This document shows positions 43,512 through 57,955 of a stretch of DNA of 64,000 nucleotides, in pieces (position 1 is the stretch's first letter; each line of letters begins with the position of its first letter). The notes under the pieces are model-generated. The model was given only the letters and a program-made list of their open reading frames with translations, made no database searches and was not told the DNA's origin. Source of the stretch: Alkalimarinus sediminis (GTDB lineage: Bacteria > Pseudomonadota > Gammaproteobacteria > Pseudomonadales > Oleiphilaceae); NCBI RefSeq assembly GCF_026427595.1, contig NZ_CP101527.1, positions 3,095,001 through 3,159,000 of the forward strand. Direction: 5' to 3'. The position numbers and the translations under genes were made by a program.

Positions 43512-43579
43512 CATGATAGCTTGATGCAGCAAAATCGTTTCGCGGCCGAGCCACACTTTTACATTGCGGAGGTCAATAT

Positions 43580-43636
43580 TGTAAGAGTGGGGCTTGTGAA
43601 TATAGGAGTGAGGCTTGATTGTAGGAGTAAGGCTTG
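43580..43636. repeat. Three degenerate 17-bp REP-like direct repeats between psd and epmA
   Basis: Three copies of a consensus T(G/A)TA(A/G)GAGT(A/G)(G/A)GGCTTG start at 43580, 43601 and 43620. They resemble the conserved head of Pseudomonas-type REP elements (GTAGGAG...GGCTTG), though here they are AT-richer and tandem. A related piece lies between minC and minD. They fill the space between two 3' ends. Confidence 0.5.
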
Positions 43637-54650: not shown

Positions 54651-55721
54651 TTATAACAAAGACAGCTGGCGACTCTCGACAGGGTCATTTTCACCCAGTC
54701 TAACCCCTACACCTAAAAGACGAACAGATTTCCCCTGCCTAGCCCAAGCAGCCTTGAGTAATTCGCCATAAATATCGTCAGAGTCCCACTCTTCGCAAGT
54801 ACTATCTAATTTATGTTCAAGAGTCGTTTGGGTAAAGTCAAAAAACTTCACTTTCACAAACCGCTTGATGACTGTTTTACCCTCCCTCAATTTTTGCTTA
54901 CACCGCCCTCTTAATTCCTGCAACAGTGCAGGTAAGCATTCGATAACCGCAGCAAGGCTTTTTAAATCATTAGAGTATGTTCGTTCTACAGAGACTGATT
55001 TGCGCACTCGATCGACCTGCACCGGTCTATTGTCGATACCTCTAGCAACCGAAAACAAACGTTTCCCATACTGTCCAAATGAGCGAACCAACTCAGTCTC
55101 ACTCAACTTCTGGAGGTCACCACAAGTATTAATACCCATTTGGTTAAGCTTAGATTTAGTGACTCTACCGACACCATTAATCTTTGATACATCCAACCCT
55201 ATTACAAAGTTCGCGACCTCTTCAGGGCGAATAACAAATAGGCCATCAGGCTTATTCCAGTCACTAGCCACCTTTGCGAGAAACTTATTTGGCGCAACTC
55301 CGGCAGAAATGGTAATACCTAGTTGCTGATTTACTCTGGCACGAATCTCTTTCGCCATTAGGGTTGCACTACCCGAGCATTTTGATATATCTGTTACATC
55401 AAGATAAGCCTCATCAAGAGATAAAGGCTCTATGCAATCACTATACTGCTTAAAAATTTCATGCATCGCTCGAGACGCGTCCCGATATTTAGCCATATCA
55501 GACTTCAAAAATACTAACTCAGGGCATAACTGCAAAGCCTTTGCCGATGACATAGCAGACCGAACACCATACGCTCTAGCCTCATAACTACAGGTTGCAA
55601 TCACCCCTCTGGAATTGGGCGACCCTCCTACAGCAACCGGCAAACCACGCAGCTGTGGGTTATCCCTAACTTCTACAGCGGCATAAAAGCAATCACAATC
55701 ACAATGAATGATCTTTCGCAC
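54651..55721 (-). CDS. dinB: DNA polymerase IV (Y family)
   Basis: DinB is an SOS-induced translesion polymerase. The 356-residue protein has the catalytic acidic residues in HCDCDCFYAAVE and SLDEAYLDVT, GVAPNKFLAKVASDWNKPDG, and a little-finger domain ending in RLGVGVRLGE; it lacks a clear beta-clamp motif except the terminal SRQLSLL. I start at GTG 55721 (VRKIIHCD), matching the family start; an in-frame GTG at 55733 would add four residues and lies inside a tandem repeat. A LexA-like site lies about 140 bases upstream. Confidence 0.92.
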   Translation of the reverse strand: MRKIIHCDCDCFYAAVEVRDNPQLRGLPVAVGGSPNSRGVIATCSYEARAYGVRSAMSSAKALQLCPELVFLKSDMAKYRDASRAMHEIFKQYSDCIEPLSLDEAYLDVTDISKCSGSATLMAKEIRARVNQQLGITISAGVAPNKFLAKVASDWNKPDGLFVIRPEEVANFVIGLDVSKINGVGRVTKSKLNQMGINTCGDLQKLSETELVRSFGQYGKRLFSVARGIDNRPVQVDRVRKSVSVERTYSNDLKSLAAVIECLPALLQELRGRCKQKLREGKTVIKRFVKVKFFDFTQTTLEHKLDSTCEEWDSDDIYGELLKAAWARQGKSVRLLGVGVRLGENDPVESRQLSLL

Positions 55722-55730
55722 ACTCGCTCT

Positions 55731-55818
55731 CACTCTTTCACTCTTTCACTCTTTCACTCTTTCACTCTTTCACTTTTTCACTTTTTCACTCTCTAACTCT
55801 CTAACTCTCTAACTCATT
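55731..55818. repeat. Eleven-unit 8-bp tandem repeat in the dinB leader
   Basis: On the + strand five perfect copies of CACTCTTT (55731-55770) are followed by two CACTTTTT, one CACTCTCT, two AACTCTCT and one AACTCATT. Transcribed toward dinB it is a purine-rich (AAAGAGTG)n tract that holds Shine-Dalgarno-like GAAAGAG stretches, GTG codons and, in every frame, TGA stops. It covers most of the leader between the predicted promoter and the dinB start. The unit length and identity suggest slippage. Confidence 0.95.
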
Positions 55819-55846
55819 CTCTCGGAAATCATTCCCACACTTTGCG

Positions 55847-55859: not shown

Positions 55860-55875
55860 CTGTATATACATACAA
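55860..55875 (-). promoter_or_regulatory. LexA (SOS) box upstream of dinB
   Basis: The sequence CTGTATATACATACAA matches CTG-N10-CAG with one mismatch in the last base and the usual AT-rich centre. Read on the - strand it is TTGTATGTATATACAG and overlaps the presumed -35. Placement before a translesion polymerase gene supports SOS control. Confidence 0.7.
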
Positions 55876-56084
55876 TCTATTATGGCATCGAGATACAAAT
55901 ATGAGCAAGAGAAAGTCAAATCAACAACCAATAACTAAAAAACGTTTAACGTTAAAAAAAGAGTCATAATGTATGGATCGTGTTAATATAGTTTCGATAT
56001 TACAAATAATAACTTTCAGCTAATTACTCTCGGGAATCACCGTCAGGGTGTTGGCATCTCAGGGACGAATGCTAGGACGAACAG

Positions 56085-56936
56085 ATGAATTCAACGGCAT
56101 TATCAGCACAGCAAACAAGCTGCTTACAGCTAAAAGGCTCACTTCTTCCACTTACTGTATTAGAACTTAGCTACTTCGAGCCTTCTCAGTTTTCTGCTGA
56201 GCTAGCAGCAAAAGCAGAGCAAGCACCTGGTTTTTTTAACAACCTCCCTGTGGTGATTGGACTCTCTAAATTTGATACTTCTAAAGGCCCTGCTGACTTT
56301 GAAAAAATAATCCGTATTTGTAGTACTTTTTCGGTCAAGCCTATTGCAGTAAGAGGCGGCAGCGAAACACAACAAATAGCCGCTAAACTGGCAGGCCTAG
56401 CAACCATGCCCGCACAAAAAGAGAAAAGTTCGACTGAGTCAACTGATTTACACGAAGTTAAAGACGCAGCAACAACAGAAACGCATGTTGAGACCAGCAC
56501 TCTAAAAGATGCAGAATCAGAGCAGGTAGAAGTTCAACAAGAGCAACCTGCAAGCAGCACAGCTCAAACGACCGAAGCCCCTCAAACCAAAGAAATAAAA
56601 TCACAAGAAACTCGCATCATCTATCAACCTGTTCGCTCTGGGCAACAGGTCTATGCACAAAATGGTGACCTTATTGTATTAGCCCAAGTCAGCGCTGGGG
56701 CAGAAATATTAGCGGACGGAAATATTCATGTATATGGCCCACTCAGAGGGCGGGCTCTCGCTGGCGTAAAAGGCAACACCAAAGCACGTATTTTTTGCCA
56801 TAGCTTAGAGGCAGAGCTTGTTTCCATTGCGGGACAGTATAAAATTAGCGAAGATTTACAAAATGGATTGTGGAAGAAAGCAGCCCAGATTCATCTTGAA
56901 GATAAAACACTAACAGTAAAAGCATTAGTAGATTAA
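56085..56936 (+). CDS. minC: Septum site-determining protein MinC
   Basis: MinC blocks FtsZ ring formation away from midcell. The 283-residue protein has the N-terminal FtsZ-inhibiting domain (about 10-110; [18 protein letters not shown]), a Glu/Thr/Ser-rich linker of about 60 residues (118-178), longer than in E. coli, and the C-terminal beta-helix that binds MinD (about 180-283; [48 protein letters not shown]). It is separated from minD by 209 structured bases. Confidence 0.95.
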
Positions 56937-57145
56937 GTGCTTCACATTAGTAGATATAAGTACTGCTCATCAGCAGGTTAAGTACTAGGAGCAAGCACTT
57001 TGTTGTAGGTGCGGCTCTCGCAGGATTATCGCAAGCAACACAGAGCTGGCTCTTTAAGCAAGTATTCGCTCAAGCCGGCCATATGTGCTGAAAAAATGAT
57101 AGGGACAATCAGCAACGATTAACCACGACAAACGGGAAATAGACA
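56937..57145 (+). repeat. Structured minC-minD gap with REP-like fragment
   Basis: The region contains an outer inverted pair AGTGCTT/AAGCACT, direct AAGTACT copies and a small hairpin CTGCTCATCAGCAG, then TGTAGGTGCGGCTCTCGCAGG at 57004-57024, which resembles REP-element heads. Such an insertion between minC and minD is unusual since the genes are normally adjacent. Confidence 0.45.
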
Positions 57146-57955
57146 TTGGCTAAGATAATAGTAATTACATCAGGTAAAGGTGGTGTTGGCAAAACCACCA
57201 CTAGCGCATCCGTCTCTACCGGGCTAGCAAAGCGCGGACACAAAACCGTCGTTATCGATTTTGATGTAGGTCTTAGAAACCTTGACCTCATCATGAATTG
57301 CGAACGCCGTGTAGTATATGACTTTGTTAACGTAATTAACGAAGAAGCCACACTCAACCAAGCGCTTATCAAAGACAAACATGTAGAAGACCTTTACATT
57401 TTGCCTGCATCTCAAACTCGAGATAAAGATGCGTTGACTCAGCAAGGTGTTGAACGAGTCCTCAACGAGTTAGCAGAGCGCTTTGAGTATATTATTTGTG
57501 ACTCACCTGCAGGTATTGAGCATGGCGCGCAAATGGCCCTCTATTATGCAGATGAAGCGATCATCGTGACCAATCCTGAAGTCTCTTCAGTTCGAGATTC
57601 CGATCGAATTCTAGGTATATTGCAAAGCAAGTCCAGAAGAGCTGAGATGGGTCTTGACCCTGTGAAAGAGCACTTATTACTAACCCGCTACAACCCGGCT
57701 CGCGCAGAAACTGGCGAGATGCTTGGTGTTGAAGATGTTAAAGATATACTGGCTATCAAACTATTGGGTGTTATCCCTGAGTCACAGACAGTATTAAGTG
57801 CCTCAAACCAAGGTGTTCCAGTCATATTGGACGAAAGCAGCGATGCTGGCCAAGCATACCAAGATGCAGTGGGTCGACTATTAGGAGAGGAGCTTGAACA
57901 TCGCTTTCTTGAAGTCGAGAAAAAAGGGTTCTTTAAAAGGATGTTTAGGGGGTAA
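57146..57955 (+). CDS. minD: Septum site-determining ATPase MinD
   Basis: MinD is the membrane-cycling ATPase that carries MinC and is released by MinE. The 269-residue protein has the deviant Walker A KGGVGKTT at about 10-17, [26 protein letters not shown] and a C-terminal amphipathic membrane helix ([12 protein letters not shown]). The start codon is TTG (aligns with MAKIIV of other MinD). Two bases separate it from minE. Confidence 0.97.

Follow-up and report, generated by a model that had tools for sequence, protein, structure and literature searches.

We asked whether a tandem array of 8-bp units in the leader of dinB, the gene for DNA polymerase IV, allows this polymerase to be expressed in a phase-variable way, as a first-pass annotation had proposed. 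If copy number tunes DinB, the mutator polymerase itself would be under slippage control. The answer that we favour, with a probability of roughly two in three, is that the array is a species-private, nearly neutral minisatellite that has grown by slippage and is now part of the dinB initiation region. Unless another locus is named, positions refer to the window, that is, the whole stretch of 64,000 nucleotides that was analysed; the coordinates of the main features are collected in Table 1.

Table 1. Features of the dinB locus and of a second array at a gene start
Feature	Position	Strand	Basis or remark
8-bp tandem array	55730..55823	-	TRF period 8, 11.8 copies, score 118; consensus GAGTGAAA = AAAGAGTG
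Five identical AAAGAGTG units, gene-proximal	55731..55770	-	Unit-by-unit reading
dinB, DNA polymerase IV, intact, 360 aa	54651..55733	-	NF002677 equivalog, 502 bits vs cut-off 256
GTG closing the last unit; first start from which dinB can be read (M-R-A-S-V-RKIIH)	55731..55733	-	Frame reading
Alternative GTG start immediately preceding RKIIHCDCD	55719..55721	-	Frame reading and family alignment
Likely dinB promoter, TTGCTC - 18 nt - CATAAT	55879..55908	-	By eye
LexA-like operator TTGTATGTATATACAG, which covers the predicted transcription start	55860..55875	-	One base off CTGT-N8-ACAG
16-bp x 8.9 array at ABC-transporter gene start	L127 7607-7749 (G000:C1:1907607-1907749)		Runs into gene

The array and its promoter

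Eleven clear 8-bp units lie on the minus strand at 55731-55818. Read upstream from dinB, they are five copies of AAAGAGTG, two of AAAAAGTG, one AGAGAGTG, two of AGAGAGTT and one AATGAGTT. With the register set to end at 55731, units 1-5 match AAAGAGTG at 8/8 positions, units 6-8 at 7/8 and units 9-11 at 6/8; uniformity is highest beside the gene and decays with distance from it. The earlier count of eleven units, five of them identical, was correct. The five identical units next to the gene are presumably the youngest part of the array.

The array is far above chance. It has the highest TRF score of all arrays within the 64-kb window (118), while the best score in 50 randomised windows of the same length and composition (first-order Markov) was 62 and the median was 41. 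As a tandem short repeat within a promoter, leader or ORF, it has the form expected of the repeat at a phase-variable (contingency) locus. Elsewhere in the window, an imperfect 19-bp x 3.0 tandem repeat was seen at 43578-43636 (TRF score 65). An imperfect 22-bp x 2.9 repeat at 56923-56986 overlaps both the last part of the ORF 56085-56936 and the spacer that precedes the ORF at 57146; these two ORFs look like minC and minD.

The promoter elements recur in two congeners (L006 and L008) and are not plainly seen in two others (L007 and L009); a consensus promoter scan did not return the pair, and its first hexamer is weak. At the aligned position of the operator, 4/4 congeners have an exact CTGT-N8-ACAG. 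The genome contains lexA, the promoter of which shows two CTGT-N8-ACAT boxes by eye. An operator of this kind at the promoter is what a LexA-regulated dinB would be expected to have. One relative (L026) has a tandem pair of LexA-type boxes upstream of dinB, ACTGTATGTAAATACAG and ACTGTATTTACATACAG.

The first-pass annotation had placed the array between a LexA-like promoter and the dinB start codon, and this order of box, array and gene was confirmed. In a transcript that starts at about 55871, as predicted, the eleven units would make up most of the 138 nt ahead of GTG 55733. The statement that the repeat forms most of the leader therefore holds for these 138 nt, although about 50 nt of the predicted leader precede the array.

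Reading frames and the start of dinB

Where does translation of dinB begin? The gene can be read only from GTG 55733 and GTG 55721, with in-frame stops at 55811, 55772 and 55748 blocking every ATG, GTG and TTG further upstream. One of these two GTGs must be the start. Both are possible, since some family members likewise have the start triplet immediately before RKIIH. As had been claimed, the upstream in-frame GTG belongs to the gene-proximal unit, which it closes. Judged from the reading frames, the array occupies the initiation region of dinB whichever GTG serves as the start. The congeners presumably start at an ATG that lies 9 to 12 nt upstream of the RKIIH codons, and the triplet aligned with it reads GCG in this genome. 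Two ATGs here, 55832 and 55817, share the dinB frame but run into the TAG at 55811; the latter belongs to the outermost unit and may be what is left of a former start.

The geometry of the unit (GTG AAA GAG TGA) is such that each unit holds a GTG and a TGA, and each stop overlaps the next GTG. The seven GTGs of the array upstream of 55733 (55789-55741) open frames of three codons each, VKE or VKK, followed by a stop. None of the three frames stays open through the array: each is closed within three units, at any copy number. For this reason, copy number can neither switch dinB on and off by frame nor yield a longer DinB, and we ruled out ON/OFF phase variation by frame switching. The competing GTG starts proposed earlier are likewise not borne out, because no frame switch is possible and only the two GTGs named above read into dinB.

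We calculated the Shine-Dalgarno pairing with an assumed anti-Shine-Dalgarno sequence, since two patterns searched for the tail of this genome's own 16S rRNA gave no match, perhaps because of masking. With this assumed sequence the pairing is -4.7 kcal/mol ahead of those GTGs that follow a perfect unit and -5.3 kcal/mol ahead of GTG 55721, the congeners ranging from -1.7 to -7.4 kcal/mol. Thus the Shine-Dalgarno-like purines and GTG codons noted in the first pass are indeed repeated, but at -4.7 kcal/mol the former are weak. The predicted mean unpaired fraction is 0.65 in the array versus 0.44 in the stretch before it. Around the two starts it is 0.36 and 0.51, and the start regions of the congeners have 0.39-0.57. 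We therefore find an unstructured leader unconvincing as a benefit of the array: the array is more open, yet the start regions are not.

Relatives and other arrays of the genome

The distance from the box to the RKI codons is 53-86 nt in the four congeners versus 141 nt here, and the array is absent from the dinB leaders of all four. In this comparison, the array has lengthened the leader and sits where the congeners have a short leader and their presumed ATG. We then looked for (AAAGAGTG)3 in 390 genomes sampled from the order, a sample that excluded the four congeners, whose leaders were inspected separately. It was found in 1/390, namely this genome, at a single site; one further genome (G387) matched solely the control pattern, which is the pattern read backwards. 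Among 109 other dinB leaders (107 distinct), none had an array of at least 4 copies at a TRF score of at least 30, the maximum being 2.9 copies. These leaders, 300 bp each and one shorter, came from 29 loci of 53 matching genomes (30 loci given in all) and from the best 80 of 579 dinB loci; the closest of these 80 has 74% identity, and the own or very near genomes possibly lie outside them. Among the species compared, the array therefore seems confined to this one. The DNA of dinB and its leader had no match in phage records with the BLAST low-complexity filter on, under which the array itself was hardly searched, and on this result a phage origin was rejected.

To see the array against the background of its genome, we made a census of 800 kb, or 19% of the genome, in 40 pieces of 20 kb each, with 12,500 of these bases masked. 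Arrays were counted if they had at least 4 copies of a unit of 6-22 bp and a TRF score of at least 60, and their positions were compared with ORF proxies. The sample holds 18 arrays, which extrapolates to about 95 per genome; 12 of them score at least 118, and 13 lie outside the ORF proxies. In another sample of this genome (G000) that includes the window, 8/10 arrays are outside ORFs. The dinB array fits these intergenic minisatellites, which are many, have units of 6-22 bp and lie mostly outside ORFs, and it is ordinary for its genome. With some 95 comparable arrays per genome, nothing ties the one at dinB to a mutator function. Smaller samples of other genomes gave 2 and 0 arrays per 200 kb (G001 and G002) and, per 100 kb, 0 in G013, 4 in G014, 2 in G022 and 0 in G041. 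Loss of mismatch repair as a cause of the arrays was rejected on account of a full-length mutS (of mutS and mutL, mutS alone was examined).

Most units in the census differ from each other. The dinB unit occurs in none of the 18 other sampled arrays, and the exact two-unit pattern is found nowhere else in the genome. Since that pattern is unique in the genome and the three-unit pattern is limited to one genome of the order sample, we rejected the idea of a unit common to other loci, that is, of a regulon. CTTACCA recurs in two arrays, L119 16434-16472 and, rotated, L185 10281-10310, and CCTTATCAC is common to two. The separate arrays at L127 10777-10869, L127 10706-10743 and L130 11342-11422, with units of 17-19 bp, have CCTTATCAC in common and are possibly one repeat family. 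Further arrays are AAGTGGC x 13.3 at L195 5913-6005 (100% matches), which looks the most slippage-prone among those sampled, GTGGTGTA x 11.4 at L185 15001-15091 and TGTATGGA x 7.8 at L128 2304-2365.

Arrays in this genome do not favour gene starts: 2/18 sampled arrays lie within 30 bp of the start of an ORF proxy, versus 8/18 at an end. One array at a gene start is nevertheless instructive for dinB. The units of the 16-bp array at L127 (Table 1) agree with the initial 16 nt of the gene that it runs into, ATGCGACACCGTAACT, the consensus at 15/16 positions and the nearest units exactly. Judged from its sequence, this gene probably encodes an ABC transporter. Its ATG is shared by 4/4 congeners, in which the 150 nt read upstream are free of arrays. 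In one of them (L200) the ATG is preceded by GGAGG, a motif missing at the corresponding place here and not plainly seen in L201-L203. This array looks like a minisatellite that has grown from the gene start, and arrays in this genome can apparently do so and displace the old ribosome-binding region. Like the dinB array, it abuts and includes the start codon and is not found upstream of the gene in 4/4 congeners; unlike it, it has a unit of 16 bp that matches the gene's own first codons. The dinB array looks like a second case of this kind, though its seed is not plain.

Origin and possible effects of the array

In the reading that we favour, replication slippage would have expanded an 8-bp unit in the leader that precedes an SOS-type dinB. 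Growth would have taken place at the ribosome-binding and start region, so that the last unit now supplies the first usable GTG and the unit preceding it a weak AGAG as Shine-Dalgarno sequence. Because each unit has a GTG and a TGA, gain or loss of units would leave the start and frame of dinB unaffected. With the frame untouched, a change in copy number would alter only the length of the leader and the number of upstream mini-ORFs, and would shift the DinB level to a small, graded extent at most. From this we infer that the array is nearly neutral. Some observations speak against this reading: the overlap of GTG and TGA, together with Shine-Dalgarno-like purines, recurs in seven units and could have been selected; neutral growth at a gene start has to be set against the census, where starts are the rarer site; and the density of arrays elsewhere, 0 to 4 per 100 kb, was sampled thinly.

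Graded effects of repeats in leaders or promoters are already described. In Haemophilus influenzae, a higher number of 7-bp repeats (ATCTTTC) at hmw1A leads to a graded fall in expression (PMC8262952), and in Moraxella, AGAT repeats upstream of uspA2 alter the mRNA level (PMC7302503). Like the repeat at dinB, that at hmw1A separates a promoter from the start codon, and it falls within the 5'UTR of the P2 transcripts; it differs in that variation and effect were measured, the repeat stands between two promoters and the gene encodes an adhesin and not a repair polymerase (PMC8262952). Nearest in form, by analogy, is the array at gor of Moraxella catarrhalis, an 8-bp unit (GACTGTTT) located 25 bp 5' of the gene of a cytoplasmic redox enzyme; its unit, unlike that at dinB, has neither a Shine-Dalgarno sequence nor a GTG in the form reported (PMC7302503). 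It varies from 2 to 17 units across five strains, and in the assays reported it was unchanged within two strains, with 2 and 6 units (PMC7302503). The comparison suggests that five perfect 8-bp units would slip rarely. For dinB itself, the statement in the first pass that no such case is described agrees with our searches of open-licence literature, in which none of the papers listed describes a repeat-controlled dinB. In meningococcus, DinB overproduction was reported without a global mutator phenotype (PMC4085013).

The proposal that prompted this work, that the number of units changes often and that leader length tunes translation or mRNA of Pol IV, resulting in mixed low and high mutators, draws on the position of the array in the leader, on five identical units that suggest recent growth, and on the precedents of hmw1A (PMC8262952) and uspA2 (PMC7302503). 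Given that no frame switch is possible, that just five 8-bp units are perfect while the gor array did not vary in the two assayed strains (PMC7302503), and that the genome has many arrays without a link to dinB, we consider it unlikely. A narrower version, in which units gained or lost during SOS mutagenesis would grade the translation of Pol IV while the GTG/TGA overlap keeps the frame, so that mutability is set by a frame-proof rheostat, we regard as very doubtful. The same overlap could be the product of selection: ribosomes would enter at any of the weak Shine-Dalgarno-GTG units, make three-codon peptides and pass by termination and reinitiation at GTGA down to the dinB GTG, which would make translation insensitive to slippage. 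The seven consecutive GTG-K-(E/K)-TGA mini-ORFs, in which every stop shares bases with the following GTG, would suit such a ladder, as would the Shine-Dalgarno-like AGAG 7 nt ahead of each GTG preceded by a perfect unit. Yet this geometry arises automatically in any 8-bp unit whose terminal GTG is followed by A and which has TGA in register, the pairing is weak, the array has some predicted structure (by the unpaired values given above, also around the starts) and a single species has it; a selected ladder seems rather improbable to us.

Marine Beggiatoaceae have 169 sets of TAACTGA direct repeats with 2-6 copies, for which a regulatory network was proposed (PMC4679880). Like the dinB array, these repeats are short, lie just 5' of start codons and contain stop codons in sense orientation; by contrast, they are one heptamer at many sites with little Shine-Dalgarno character (PMC4679880). 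By its position, the dinB array might similarly be bound by a protein (of the S1, Csr or Csp type) or act through DNA structure, as was proposed there. However, a network of that type has one unit before many genes, and the dinB unit stands at one site; set beside the 169 sets of one heptamer (PMC4679880), a two-unit pattern unique in its genome and seen in 0/18 other arrays makes binding highly improbable. Least probable of all is an artefact, be it a wrong number of units in the assembly or an array outside the transcript. Short arrays can be miscounted and the transcription start is a prediction, but the genome is a single contig, 99.91% complete, the distinct unit variants follow each other in order, and the promoter-like elements and the box upstream align in the congeners.

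The cases of dinB and the ABC transporter suggest that gene starts can seed arrays in this genome, even though the sampled arrays lie nearer to gene ends more often. Even if the dinB array is neutral, it illustrates how a minisatellite can take over the start codon and ribosome-binding region of a gene and leave the gene unbroken.
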